Source of the DNA: a virus
Length of the DNA stretch: 26,477 nucleotides
Reading direction: 5' to 3' (one strand)
Virus record (IMG/VR): IMGVR_UViG_3300037104_000147
Location: 1 to 26,477 of that record
The notes below the pieces were generated by a model that saw only the letters and a list, made by a program, of their open reading frames with translations, made no database searches and was not told the origin of the DNA. Within the stretch, counting starts at the first letter, position 1, and each line of letters opens with the position of its first letter. Below, one piece after another: positions 6,627-16,911 of the stretch. The position numbers and the translations under genes are program-made.

Positions 6627-6658
6627 GGGTTAACCCCTTTATTTTCAAGGGGTTGCCC
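6627..6658 (-). terminator. Strong hairpin after the endolysin gene, possible terminator
   Basis: AACCCCTT (6632-6639) pairs with AAGGGGTT (6647-6654), extended by GGG/CCC (6627-6629 and 6656-6658) across a small internal loop. It lies between the endolysin stop and the promoter of the HNH-RHH gene. There is no U-tract, so an intrinsic terminator is uncertain; it may protect mRNA 3' ends instead. Confidence 0.5.
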
Positions 6659-11221: not shown

Positions 11222-11360
11222 TACTCTCTAGGCTCCTAGCTAGGATGGGATTACGTTTTTCACTGAGGAGGAGAAAGTATAAGGCCCAGTCGCCAGACAT
11301 AAACCTTATACAAAGAGTTCCCAAGTGTTGACCATTCCTACGGTAGGAGCCTAGAGAGTA
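11222..11360 (-). repeat. Perfect 17-bp inverted repeat with nested stems
   Basis: TACTCTCTAGGCTCCTA (11222-11238) is the exact reverse complement of 11344-11360. Inside, TAGGA-TGG (11241-11248) pairs with CCATTCCTA (11332-11340) with one bulge, and GTATAAGG (11277-11284) pairs with CCTTATAC (11304-11311). The left arm can instead pair locally, CTAGGAGC (11204-11211) with GCTCCTAG (11232-11239), so two folds exclude each other. Confidence 0.75.
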
Positions 11361-13576: not shown

Positions 13577-14092
13577 TTAAAACTCAAAATCACCGCTAAA
13601 CGGGTCTTGTTCTGTTCCTGTCATAAACTTTGCTTTAGTACTTGCAGGTTCTTTTTTTACAGCTTTCTCAGTTTTGTAGTTATCTTTCACAAGCTCATCA
13701 TACAATCTTTTCATTTCAGGATTAGCCTCAATCTCAGCCATAGCTTTATCTTGAGCATTATGTGCCATAATATCCTTCATGCTCATAGGAACTTGTATTC
13801 CAGCTATCTGAGCTAGAGACAATGCTGATATGTCAATATTCTTCGCTTTAAACGTAGCAATCACATGAGCTTTAGCATACTCATCACGTGCTTTGTAAAA
13901 AGCCTGACACACAAGAGAGTGCTGTTCATGAAAATCATGATACTTTAAACGCTCTTGCGGATTGGTAGATTTTTTGTATATCTTTCTGTACTTAATATCC
14001 AAAGCGCATGATGCTTTATACTCCATCAGTGCTTGCACATATACCGCATGTGCTTCTGGATCAACATTCTGTACAGCTTTAGGAAAAGCCAT
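13577..14092 (-). CDS. Hypothetical helical protein with acidic/aromatic tail, 171 aa
   Basis: It starts at 14092 behind GAAGGAGTTATTCAG and is the first gene after the promoter at 14120-14149. The protein is largely helical and basic (YRKIYKKSTNPQERLKYHDF, YAKAHVIATFKAKNID). It ends in a short acidic, aromatic tip (EQDPFSGDFEF) after a Lys-rich linker. That tail recalls the protein-binding C-terminal peptide of single-stranded DNA-binding proteins, although no OB fold is evident. I recognise no family and treat the tail resemblance as a clue only. Confidence 0.7.
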   Translation of the reverse strand: MAFPKAVQNVDPEAHAVYVQALMEYKASCALDIKYRKIYKKSTNPQERLKYHDFHEQHSLVCQAFYKARDEYAKAHVIATFKAKNIDISALSLAQIAGIQVPMSMKDIMAHNAQDKAMAEIEANPEMKRLYDELVKDNYKTEKAVKKEPASTKAKFMTGTEQDPFSGDFEF

Positions 14093-14119: not shown

Positions 14120-14149
14120 ATTCTAACACTCTATCAGAGAGCGTGTCAA
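14120..14149 (-). promoter_or_regulatory. Strong sigma70 promoter with symmetric spacer
   Basis: On the minus strand TTGACA (14149-14144) and TAGAAT (14125-14120) are 18 bases apart. The spacer contains the near-palindrome ACGCTCT-CTGAT-AGAGTGT, a possible operator. It drives the 171-residue gene and its followers and begins just outside the giant inverted repeat at 14164-14562. Confidence 0.78.
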
Positions 14150-14163
14150 GCGGCTAATGTCTT

Positions 14164-14562
14164 ATGGTGGCATTGCTCGATGGTTTGAATATTGGGAAGT
14201 CTTTGATTCTAAAGACTTTTCTCGCATGGTCCCCCCTATAGGTCATCCATGTGAATTTTCTTTTGACCCCTTCCCTCCAAGGGCGGGTCGACTTGTGCAT
14301 TCTAGATCAGGAACGAGAGAGCTGTTTTGAGAGTGTTCTTATAGTAGAATATTTTTATATATATATATATTTATTTTTTTTTTTTTCTTATAATACTCAT
14401 ACTATCTCAAACTCTCATAACTTGAAATGCACGCCTCGCCTCGCCCCCGCGAAGGGGCGCTTGAAAGAGAAAAGTCGATGACGACCTATACGGGGGAGCC
14501 AAGGCTAAATCCTTTAAAGAGAGAGAGATGCTGATATCCAAACCATCCTTCAATGTCACCAT
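14164..14562. repeat. ~400-bp imperfect inverted repeat with A+T-only tip (origin or structured RNA candidate)
   Basis: Paired segments nest in order: ATGGTGGCATTG with CAATGTCACCAT (14164-14175, 14551-14562); ATGGTTTG/CAAACCAT (14180-14187, 14539-14546); TCCCCC and TATAGGTC with GACCTATA and GGGGGA (14230-14244, 14483-14497); TTTTCT/AGAAAA (14256-14261, 14468-14473); CCCCTTC/GAAGGGG (14267-14273, 14451-14457); GGGCGGG-x-CGA with 14436-14446; GTGCATT/AATGCAC (14295-14301, 14426-14432); TTTGAGA/TCTCAAA (14326-14332, 14405-14411). The tip holds an (AT)n run and 13 T (14374-14386). A side hairpin is AAGTCTTT/AAAGACTT (14197-14218). No gene is seen here. Confidence 0.75.
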
Positions 14563-14567
14563 ATCCC

Positions 14568-14622
14568 TTTACAGAGAGAAAGAGAACGCGCCTGCGGCGA
14601 GAACGCTCTTACACTCTGTAAA
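14568..14622. other. Hairpin beside the giant inverted repeat
   Basis: TTTACAGAG (14568-14576) pairs with CTCTGTAAA (14614-14622), then AAGAG/CTCTT (14580-14584, 14606-14610), then CGCC/GGCG (14589-14599). It lies between the terminator of the 165-residue gene and the giant inverted repeat, with only five bases separating it from the latter. It has no coding role. Confidence 0.65.
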
Positions 14623-14652
14623 AAGCTAGGAGCAGCTATGGTAGCCTGCTCC
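14620..14652 (-). terminator. Rho-independent terminator, minus strand
   Basis: On the minus strand GGAGCAG (14652-14646) pairs with CTGCTCC (14635-14629), with inner CTA/TAG pairs and one bulge. It is followed after four bases by TTTTT (14624-14620). It lies just after the stop of the 165-residue gene and should separate the first early transcript from the rest of the arm. Confidence 0.75.
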
Positions 14653-14660
14653 CTGTGCTT

Positions 14661-15158
14661 TTACCGCATCCAGTTTTTCTCTTGCACTCCAAGATGCGCG
14701 TACAGTATTCCGAGTAGTTTCGAAGCCGTAGCAGACTCATACGTTTTGTTCGTCACATCGCGTATGCGCTTGCCGACTTCATTCTGTAGTTCCGGCTTCA
14801 AAGCATCGAAGTCAGCCTTGATCAGATTCAGGCTAATCTCTTTCGCCGCTGTGCCGATACCGCGAACCAGACCGGCAAGGTGATCACCTACCGTGCTGAT
14901 TGTCTCACGATCAATGATGCTGTTTGCCGTGCTCTTCAGATCAGCATAGAAGCACGCTTCATCCGGTGAGCAGTTAAATTCAGCCATTGCCAAAGCAACG
15001 TCCACACTGTGAGCCACTCGCCATGCTTTCGTATAGCGTCCGGTGAGTGCCACTAGTTCAGTGATTGCAAGCTTTATGAATGGGTTAAAAGGAACAGCCT
15101 GTTCCGTTGACTCGATGGCTTCATTCGCTACTGGCGAATTGTGATTCTGGTTTGACAT
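14661..15158 (-). CDS. Hypothetical protein, 165 aa
   Basis: I start at 15158 (MSNQNHNSPVANEAIESTEQ) because TTAGGAGAATGT precedes that ATG; an upstream in-frame ATG at 15224 overlaps the previous gene and lacks a good site. The protein is helical throughout (NPFIKLAITELVALTG, AHSVDVALAMAEFNCSPDEA, KRIRDVTNKTYESATASKLLGIL), with no cysteine pair or membrane segment. It is the second gene of the first leftward transcript and is followed by a terminator. No family recognised. Confidence 0.75.
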   Translation of the reverse strand: MSNQNHNSPVANEAIESTEQAVPFNPFIKLAITELVALTGRYTKAWRVAHSVDVALAMAEFNCSPDEACFYADLKSTANSIIDRETISTVGDHLAGLVRGIGTAAKEISLNLIKADFDALKPELQNEVGKRIRDVTNKTYESATASKLLGILYAHLGVQEKNWMR

Positions 15159-15166
15159 ACATTCTC

Positions 15167-15466
15167 CTAAACTACAGTAACTCGAATTGACTGCGTTGCG
15201 TAACCTTTGGCTGCTCTCAGCCAAACTCTGTCAATGGCATCAGGAAACATTGCCATCATAACTTCGCTGCGTCGCATGATAGCTACAACATCAGAAGGAT
15301 TCGAACTAACAGCACGTGAGTCGCATCCAATCCGTGAGTTATCAGGCGCAAAGTATGTACGCTCAATTGGGTCGGCAGTCTCACGCAGTAACTTACCTGC
15401 ATCAGCCTTGCGGCCACGCTTTAGATGCGTAATTGGTATCGTTGTTACTTCAAAACTTGTAGCCAT
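15167..15466 (-). CDS. Hypothetical early protein, 99 aa, first gene of the left arm
   Basis: It starts at 15466 behind ACGAGGAGTAACAG and is the first gene read leftward from the control region, so probably an immediate-early product. The protein (MATSFEVTTIPITHLKRGRK) is basic. It contains a central polar region and a helix with several methionines (VVAIMRRSEVMMAMFPDAID), followed by RVWLRAAKGYATQSIRVTVV. A DNA- or polymerase-binding role would suit the charge and position, but no motif proves it. No family recognised. Confidence 0.75.
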   Translation of the reverse strand: MATSFEVTTIPITHLKRGRKADAGKLLRETADPIERTYFAPDNSRIGCDSRAVSSNPSDVVAIMRRSEVMMAMFPDAIDRVWLRAAKGYATQSIRVTVV

Positions 15467-15577
15467 CTGTTACTCCTCGTAACACATTAGATAATACGCG
15501 GTACACAAGAAGAATAGCATACTTCTGCTTTATATGCTGAGATTATTTAAGCATACGATAAGCATACGTTAGCGTTT

Positions 15578-15660
15578 ATACTCACATGAGTCTATGAGTA
15601 TATGAGTATGGCCATCCTACACGCTGCTTGGTCCCAGTACCTATATGAGTATATACTCAT
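15578..15660. repeat. Array of ATGAGTAT half-sites (operator candidates)
   Basis: ATACTCA-C-ATGAGT (15578-15591) is followed by two tandem TATGAGTA units (15593-15600, 15601-15608) and then the perfect 16-bp palindrome ATGAGTATATACTCAT (15645-15660). The palindrome fills the spacer and touches the -10 of the leftward promoter. A further copy, ATACTCAT (14393-14400), lies at the tip of the giant inverted repeat. Confidence 0.75.
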
Positions 15661-15669
15661 CCGCCTCAA
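15640..15669 (-). promoter_or_regulatory. Leftward early promoter with operator in spacer
   Basis: On the minus strand TTGAGG (15669-15664) and TATAGG (15645-15640) are 18 bases apart, each matching 4/6. The T-tracts just upstream of the -35 (A-tracts on the plus strand, 15668-15688) could act as an UP element. The palindromic ATGAGTAT pair occupies the spacer, so a bound repressor would block polymerase. Confidence 0.6.
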
Positions 15670-15779
15670 AAAAATAAAAATAAAAAAGAATTGGGGGGGA
15701 CGTCCCTACTAAATTTTTTCAAAAATGTATAGAAGTGGATATACTATATGTAGCTACAAAGACAGTATGAGAAGCTGCT

Positions 15780-15808
15780 TTGACGCAGCGGGCCGCCGAG
15801 CGTATACG
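15780..15808 (+). promoter_or_regulatory. Rightward promoter candidate 1
   Basis: TTGACG (15780-15785) and TATACG (15803-15808) are 17 bases apart. The -10 overlaps the palindrome GCGTATACGC (15800-15809), which shares CGTATACG with the palindrome in the promoter at 6596-6624. Confidence 0.5.
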
Positions 15809-15853
15809 CGGGTATACAGGGTATTTTAAGGGCTAAAAATACTCACAAAGCAC

Positions 15854-15882
15854 TTGACAGCCGCCAGAGGCGGTGGTATGCT
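15854..15882 (+). promoter_or_regulatory. Rightward promoter candidate 2 (late/structural arm)
   Basis: A perfect TTGACA (15854-15859) and TATGCT (15877-15882) are 17 bases apart. The spacer contains the inverted repeat CCGCC-AGA-GGCGG, a possible operator. The predicted start falls at or next to A15889 of the first gene's ATG. Confidence 0.75.
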
Positions 15883-15888
15883 TACGGT

Positions 15889-16092
15889 ATGTCGAAGTGT
15901 ATCGAAACCTCGGAAGCACAGGCGGCGAGGGAGCAGAGCCAAGGTGCTGCTCAGGAAACGCCTGTGCCTTTTTTGCCTTCGGCAACTGAGTACAGTCCGC
16001 TGCTACGAGCACTGCGTTCGCACTTTGAGAAGTACGCGGGCCTGACAGAGCCGAAGATAGATACCTTAAGACCACAGACGGATGATCTTTAA
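15889..16092 (+). CDS. Hypothetical protein, 67 aa, possibly from a leaderless mRNA
   Basis: The ATG lies seven bases after the -10 of the promoter at 15854-15882, so a transcript from it would have almost no leader, and no ribosome binding site precedes the ATG. The protein is Gln/Ala/Glu-rich at first (SEAQAAREQSQGAAQETPVP), with a likely helix near the end (SPLLRALRSHFEKYAG). It stops directly before the small-terminase ATG, so it may serve to couple translation. If promoter 1 is used instead, the leader is ~75 bases. No family recognised. Confidence 0.55.
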   Translation: MSKCIETSEAQAAREQSQGAAQETPVPFLPSATEYSPLLRALRSHFEKYAGLTEPKIDTLRPQTDDL

Positions 16093-16911
16093 ATGGCTAC
16101 ATTTATAAACACGCCGAGCGGACCGCAGCAAGCTCCTACGGGAATGCCGCAGCCAACTACTCAAACAGTTGGTGGATTAAACACGCTGCATTATGGTGGT
16201 AGCATGAATATGAAAAGTGGGCGGCTGAGTGCTAAACCAAAAACTGGAAGCACCTATCGCTCACGCGCCCGCATGGAAACCATTGCGCGATTAGAGAATG
16301 TCGGCATGACAGAAGCAGCAACGGCGGCTATGTTTTGTATCTCTAAAGTACGCCTGATGCAGATTAAAAAGTCGCCGGAATATCTCATGGTACGAATGCA
16401 AGTAACTCACGGCATCATCGTAGATAACGATGCGCGGCTTGCACAGATTAAAGACCAACGTAAAGAGATTCTCACCCAGATGCTCCCACCCGCGCTGCAA
16501 GCACTCGCTAACGAGCTACAGCGTCCCGCCCTTACAATAGCAGAACGTAGACACAAAGCATCTATCGCGCAGGATTTACTTGACCGCGAAGGTACTTTTG
16601 CGAAGGTGTCTCGCACAGAGATTAAGCCTGTAGATGCTTTTGATTTCGAGCGTGCGGATTCAGAGTCGCGTAAAATTATCAACGCAATCAGATCAGCAGC
16701 CCCGGCTCCTACGGAGCGAAGCGCGGGCAGGAACGAGCAGGGTGAAGATGATTTTACTACTCACTCGGAGTATGCAGTAGAAGCAAACGAGGCGTTTAGT
16801 AACAGTCACACTCTCAGTCAGACGGATCAGGAGAAAGCACTCGCTAAACTTGAGGAAGAAGCCGCGGCGGCGCTGATAAGACTTCCGCTTCCCTCACAGG
16901 AGATTCAGTAA
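16093..16911 (+). CDS. Probable terminase small subunit (DNA-recognition)
   Basis: This 272-residue protein has a Pro/Thr/Gly-rich N-terminus (1-50), then a helix-turn-helix region, RARMETIARLENVGMTEAAT followed by AAMFCISKVRLMQIKKSPEY. This is the arrangement by which small terminases bind the packaging site. A helical middle follows (KDQRKEILTQMLPPALQALA, ERRHKASIAQDLLDREG) that could drive ring assembly, and an acidic C-terminal tail. It heads the head-gene arm, with the large terminase 2 kb downstream. The ribosome binding site is weak (GGATGATCTTTAA); the start is adjacent to the upstream stop. HTH resemblance, not a search, supports the call. Confidence 0.68.
   Translation: MATFINTPSGPQQAPTGMPQPTTQTVGGLNTLHYGGSMNMKSGRLSAKPKTGSTYRSRARMETIARLENVGMTEAATAAMFCISKVRLMQIKKSPEYLMVRMQVTHGIIVDNDARLAQIKDQRKEILTQMLPPALQALANELQRPALTIAERRHKASIAQDLLDREGTFAKVSRTEIKPVDAFDFERADSESRKIINAIRSAAPAPTERSAGRNEQGEDDFTTHSEYAVEANEAFSNSHTLSQTDQEKALAKLEEEAAAALIRLPLPSQEIQ

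Follow-up and report, generated by a model that had tools for sequence, protein, structure and literature searches.

A large A+T-tipped inverted repeat kept at one place in a phage lineage: a candidate replication origin

Phage origins of the T7 type consist of a promoter and an AT-rich stretch, while oriL of herpes simplex virus is a long palindrome. The element found in plasmid pT181 is short and acts together with an initiator of rolling-circle replication. In oriS and oriL of herpes simplex virus, an AT-rich spacer lies between inverted initiator sites, and a hairpin forms from the unwound strand (PMC12543377); at the pT181 plasmid origin deletion of the cruciform structure reduces or abolishes replication (PMC3176155). 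Long hairpins also occur as RNA in phages: the cabRNA of staphylococcal phages is a hairpin of 400 nt whose sequence varies between phages (PMC10686824). In the open-licence literature we found no paper on a phage hairpin such as the one described below.

The DNA analyzed here is a phage record of IMG/VR, 26,477 bases in length (the window). An earlier note on it had pointed to an imperfect inverted repeat of about 400 bp, with an A+T-only tip containing (AT)n and 13 T and unrelated to any gene. The repeat and the composition of its tip are real. A pairing scan placed the best unbranched pairing of the window at 14155-14571 (14163-14563 under stricter scoring), with a score of 120 vs. 60 for the runner-up; when the whole window was replaced by first-order Markov copies, ten in number, no inverted repeat scored above 50. 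Folded as RNA, as the note had proposed, the two strands of 14150-14575 reached -145.8 kcal/mol (plus strand, z -8.2) and -145.5 kcal/mol (minus strand, z -6.7), values that were equalled by none of the shuffled sequences. Nesting depth in RNAfold windows was too noisy for hairpin detection. The arms are about 180 nt each, with about 65% (some two-thirds) of their positions paired. The repeat that ranks second in the window is a perfect 17-bp inverted repeat (11222-11238 and 11344-11360, 105 nt apart) between minus-strand genes. The hairpin and its surroundings are laid out as follows:

13577-14092, minus strand: left flanking gene, the first one behind the promoter at 14120-14149; relatives have homologues in the same position
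14120-14149, minus strand: strong sigma70-type promoter (TTGACA-18-TAGAAT, 11/12), directed leftward, away from the hairpin; its -35 box lies at the hairpin's left base
14155-14339, no strand: left arm of the imperfect inverted repeat (pairing scan, fixed-arm test, arm-swap test)
14295-14300, no strand: GTGCAT, where the left arm joins the tip region
14315-14321, plus strand: GAGAGAG tract; second tract at 14519-14527
14340-14395, no strand: A+T-rich tip (TATAGTAGAATATTTTTATATATAT..., (AT)n, T13), a candidate DNA unwinding element (stability scan)
14396-14571, no strand: right arm of the imperfect inverted repeat (pairing scan, fixed-arm test, arm-swap test)
14427-14432, no strand: ATGCAC, mirroring the GTGCAT of 14295-14300
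14620-14652, minus strand: terminator-like stem-loop and T-run of the upstream minus-strand genes (by inspection)
14661-15224, minus strand: right flanking gene; homologues at the same place in relatives

The GTGCAT and ATGCAC hexamers were noticed by eye, without statistics, in the window and most relatives. Three of the five plus-strand GAGAGAG starts of the window fall within the hairpin, and most relatives show a similar clustering. The octamer ATACTCAT, which had been singled out at the tip, is indeed there (14393); it also occurs elsewhere in the window (13877 and 15653, and as its reverse complement at 15594, 15602, 15645 and 21938) and is altered to ACACTCAT in the sister contig L002, and we rejected it as a conserved component of the tip. 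Several copies of ATGAGTAT/ATACTCAT lie in a divergent control region at 15466-15889, which also contains a stretch rich in A and the sequence GGGGGGGACGTCCCTACTAAATTTTTT; several relatives have the G-run palindrome and T tail of this last sequence at the corresponding position. This region is a second candidate control or origin site.

The promoter that had been described on one side of the repeat and the terminator-like stem-loop on the other are both present on the minus strand; the stem-loop and T-run at 14620-14652 are identical in L002, and are missing from the list of our terminator pattern scan because the scan allows loops of 3-8 nt only. The repeat is less detached from genes than had been thought, since the -35 box of the outward promoter sits at its left base. 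A near-consensus sigma70 promoter with its -35 box at or inside the left hairpin base, pointing outward, was found in 19 of the 20 sequences compared, and no promoter of the sigma70 type directed into the hairpin, from either side, is conserved among the 20. The flanking genes (13577-14092 and 14661-15224) gave no Pfam or PHROG match; the recognizable genes elsewhere in the window encode an FtsK-like ATPase, a PD-(D/E)XK nuclease, an AAA ATPase and the large terminase subunit.

Relatives were gathered as 93 viral-contig loci (with the right-hand neighbour, the terminase and the FtsK-like protein as queries), 25 further loci (with an alignment of the right-hand neighbour as query) and one MAG contig from a genome collection. 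The 20 sequences compared are the window and related IMG/VR or MAG contigs; all are metagenomic and several are near-copies of one phage, so that they represent about 16 effective lineages. In each relative examined, homologues of the same two genes enclose an inverted repeat with an A+T tip, about 360-530 nt long. There is one such large hairpin per contig, the window included, and in most of the contigs read at length no other inverted repeat is as strong, the exceptions being G003 (which carries L044) and G004 (L049). Four circular-looking relatives of 47.7-49.9 kb, with ends that overlap exactly by 123 or 141 bases, were read whole. Relatives encode a family-A DNA polymerase and a DUF3987 ATPase. 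Named phage records gave no DNA match to the spacer region, and their terminase matches were distant, none above 26% identity. A MITE-like mobile element was rejected, the repeat being present once in the window and at the same syntenic place in all relatives read, as was a hairpin telomere of the N15 type, given that the centre is a long A+T stretch with no perfect palindrome and that four relatives assemble as circles.

Two contigs of the collection deserve a separate mention. Contig C7 of G010 (L095, L111-L113; JARLJL010000016.1, 47,690 bases), a circular-looking member of the lineage, was binned with a Sulfuriferula MAG, which could be a hint of the host or a binning error. In G008 (99.6 kb), two 1.1-kb direct repeats of 99.5% identity (25728-26834 and 73184-74290) bound the phage-like part, the flanks of which are A+T-richer and without matches to relatives; G008 may be an integrated or a chimeric sequence.

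In a nearest-neighbour stability scan, the least stable 60-bp duplex of the whole window was the tip of the hairpin. In 18 of 19 contigs, among them all four circular genomes, the weakest 60-bp duplex of the entire contig lies inside the hairpin, about 50 nt or less from its midpoint. The one exception is G008, with its roughly 50 kb of extra, more A+T-rich sequence unmatched in relatives. No other single finding speaks as strongly for an unwinding element as the weakness of the tip; an AT-rich element at the centre is also what an origin of the oriS/oriL kind would have.

The arms were examined with a fixed-arm test, in which the 220 nt on each side of the weakest duplex are compared with dinucleotide shuffles; this test is free of the hairpin boundaries picked by the pairing scan, which some of the other tests used. 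In the window, the two arms scored 138 against each other (shuffles: mean 32, maximum 48; z 22). The earlier note had made much depend on whether related phages keep the pairing, and the arms paired above shuffles in 19 of 20 hairpins. Most z values were between 8 and 28, with lower ones (4.0-5.6) in L002, L003 and L049. In L044 the value was not significant (1.6); here the tip is retained and the arms show no significant pairing in one register.

In the diverged arms, the pairwise covariation obtained from MAFFT alignments was weak and changed with the alignment, and we therefore used an alignment-free arm-swap test. Across 16 representative lineages, left arms scored a median of 110 against their own right arm, vs. 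33 against the right arms of other lineages, which is about the level of shuffles. Since arms pair within but not between lineages, their sequence turns over while the pairing is kept. The comparison of the window with L002 illustrates this. Their right-hand neighbour proteins are 96% identical and the surroundings of the tip are closely similar, its left half being strongly conserved, whereas the outer arms differ: exchanged arms scored 33 (window left with L002 right) and 54 (L002 left with window right), vs. 138 and 60 for the own arms of the window and L002, respectively. The left arm of L002 may have been replaced by recombination, because its left-hand gene is only 29% identical to that of the window; this would fit its weaker pairing.

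A selected RNA hairpin should have more G-U pairs on its functional strand than A-C mismatches. With arms aligned under an equal penalty for all non-Watson-Crick pairs, 17 phage hairpins had 102 G.T, 119 A.C and 442 other mismatches, i.e. the one-third share expected of random mismatches. Fourteen 6S RNAs treated in the same way as a control had 36 GT vs. 11 AC (p 0.0003), and their sense strand had the lower energy in 14 of 14 cases. The wobble bias of RNA is thus present in the 6S control and absent from the phage hairpins on either strand. In the window alone, the mixture of non-Watson-Crick positions described earlier again shows no strand preference, but is larger than claimed (13 G.T and 8 A.C over the long alignment). 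In 16 of 18 phage hairpins it is the minus strand that folds with the lower energy, a difference explained by composition, given that plus-strand and minus-strand z-scores agree on average. No Rfam family matched at its gathering score. Because there is no G-U bias and no conserved inward promoter, and an outward promoter in 19 of 20 sequences, these comparisons favour a function as DNA over one as RNA. The three candidates put forward by the earlier note have accordingly drawn apart: a replication origin with an unwinding element has gained from the weakest duplex, the mirrored motif described below and the conserved position and architecture; a structured RNA has lost ground for the reasons just given and for want of an Rfam match; and a full cruciform extruded from duplex DNA is doubtful because about one-third of positions are unpaired, its cost being high by our rough estimate. 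A strand that has been unwound beforehand can fold more easily than a cruciform is extruded.

Motif discovery identified a motif of 22-24 bases (tCGnTGAttacAaAGGncTTA) that occurs in each arm, the two copies lying equally far, in mirror image, from the base of the hairpin. Its log-likelihood was 146 in left arms and 114 in right arms, vs. about 65 in shuffled arms, and its orientation is swapped between the arms in some lineages. The copies in the window and a related site are:

14197-14218, plus strand: left-arm copy of the motif, a perfect 8-bp dyad AAGTCTTT-GATTCT-AAAGACTT (motif discovery, dyad scan)
14503-14526, minus strand: right-arm copy, degenerate in the window (motif scan 13.8, the window's second best)
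6632-6654, minus strand: solo dyad of the same class directly upstream of a promoter (AACCCCTT-GAAAATA-AAGGGGTT ... TTGACT; motif and dyad scans)

Similar dyads, with variable, perfectly complementary stems and a loop of the TTGAA- or TGATTC-type, are found in both orientations a short way upstream of other TTGACA promoters of the lineage (window 6632-6654, G001 16143, G002 10280, G003 22024, G008 45090 and G009 9221). Their enrichment at promoters is weak (19/143 upstream vs. 13/143 downstream). We link the arm motif to the promoter dyads only tentatively, because few cases were counted, the hairpins themselves served to train the model and the right-hand copy of the window is degenerate.

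The reading that we prefer is that the hairpin is a cis-acting DNA site, most likely the replication origin of the lineage. It draws on the tip being the weakest duplex in 18 of 19 contigs, arms that pair in 19 of 20, the missing RNA signature, the mirrored motif, the outward promoter in 19 of 20, the single copy at a fixed place and the family-A polymerase that relatives bring of their own; judged from sequence comparison, the origin function has about half of our confidence. An initiator, of phage or host, would bind the two mirrored arm sites, and polymerase leaving the adjacent promoter would generate negative supercoils behind it that help to melt the A+T tip. The opened strands could then fold back as hairpins and so hold the tip single-stranded, allowing replication proteins of the phage to load, including a helicase (relatives have the family-A polymerase and the DUF3987 ATPase), and DNA synthesis would start at the hairpin. 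Because its pairing is imperfect, the site may escape cleavage by enzymes that attack long perfect palindromes. Also counting for an origin, the hairpin lies near the point where gene directions diverge, with the minimum of cumulative GC skew 1-6 kb to its right. On the other side of the balance, this minimum follows gene direction; third-position GC skew in the minus-strand genes just right of the hairpin (few codons) lacks the reversal expected of forks leaving the hairpin; no known initiator, iterons or DnaA boxes were identified; the arms of L044 show no significant pairing; and a motif found at ordinary promoters suits gene control as well. A bolder form of the proposal, which we think possible though rather improbable, is that foldability is selected and sequence is not. 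The origin would keep its arms of about 180 bp complementary through near-complete replacement, be coupled by supercoiling to the outward promoter and share a small DNA-hairpin motif with other promoters of the lineage, the recognized signal being folded DNA with no fixed operator.

The main rival to an origin is a control element, in which the palindrome and the mirrored pair of motif sites would regulate the leftward promoter beside them, by DNA looping, a dyad-bound regulator or supercoil-driven extrusion, with no direct role in replication. In favour of this explanation are the -35 box, which 19 of 20 sequences have at the hairpin base or inside it, and the same class of dyad upstream of other TTGACA promoters of the lineage, but it leaves unaccounted for both the complementarity of arms of about 180 bp, mostly outside the motif, and the weakest duplex of the genome at the centre, and the upstream dyads are weakly enriched at promoters overall; we consider it unlikely, if clearly the foremost alternative. 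Less likely still is a large structured non-coding RNA, i.e. a long imperfect double-stranded RNA transcribed as a decoy, a regulator or an RNase III substrate. Strong folding of both strands and the lower energy of the minus strand would fit, as would the relative L081, which encodes a full RNase III beside its hairpin. However, the G-U excess seen in 6S RNA is found on neither strand, strand z-scores do not differ on average, no inward promoter is conserved and a terminator-like stem precedes the hairpin in the window; moreover, the tip in L019 and the motif in L045 are reversed, which an RNA should not tolerate. The RNase III of L081 (5826-6812, minus strand), which has a double-stranded-RNA-binding domain and adjoins the hairpin, is absent from the other phage records searched, and with a single relative encoding it we rejected the enzyme as a partner of the hairpin.

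Two further explanations do without a function of this kind, or assign another. Template switching and arm-to-arm conversion keep palindromes complementary without selection, and by renewing inverted duplications they could leave the palindrome as a by-product of a recombination-prone A+T spacer with no selection on folding. Mosaic replacement of the sort visible on the left side of L002 speaks for such events. Renewed copies should show long perfect tracts, yet the paired runs are mostly no longer than in shuffled order (mean share of pairs in runs of >=6, 0.40 vs. 0.36), position, size and tip are the same in all relatives, and the conserved arm motif would be left needing another explanation; on these grounds we find the proposal very unlikely. 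To a packaging or recombination site, where the palindrome would mark concatemer cutting or inversion of the tip, we attach the lowest probability of all. A gene less than 2 kb away (16093-16911) resembles a small terminase subunit by eye, without a family match, and the tip sequence of L019 is reversed relative to the window; against this stand circular assemblies with no hint of fixed ends at the hairpin, the absence of a recognized recombinase gene adjoining it, and arms that at about 65% pairing are too unlike for easy homologous recombination.

Should the hairpin be an origin, it would give the starting point of replication in a widespread phage lineage for which we found no named relative, and would provide a case where comparative data can tell selection for pairing as DNA from selection for pairing as RNA. 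The origin plan of herpesviruses, with inverted sites around an AT-rich core, would then reach into the tailed phages, and the old question of whether origin palindromes act as folded DNA would become directly testable.

By analogy, the hairpin would work like an origin of the oriS/oriL type, a likeness that stops short of proof. It recalls oriS and oriL by its A+T centre, by the strong folding of either strand and by a motif mirrored in the two arms, a candidate pair of initiator sites; unlike them, it belongs to a bacterial virus, measures about 400 bp against well under 200, is paired over some two-thirds of its arms and replaces its arm sequence almost completely between lineages, and its role as an origin is that of a candidate. 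As in pT181, an inverted repeat lies in a circular bacterial replicon, with the origin proven for the plasmid and a candidate for the phage; no rolling-circle initiator of the pT181 kind was recognized among the proteins scanned. The promoter beside an AT-rich melting region, in phages with a family-A polymerase, recalls the T7 type of origin, but in the present lineage transcription from the promoter leads away from the AT-rich stretch, which is enclosed in a giant inverted repeat. With 6S RNA and cabRNA, which are similar or smaller in size, the locus has a long hairpin-forming sequence in common, yet 6S RNA shows a wobble bias on its sense strand that the phage hairpins are without, and cabRNA comes from terminase genes whereas the phage hairpin occupies a conserved spacer.
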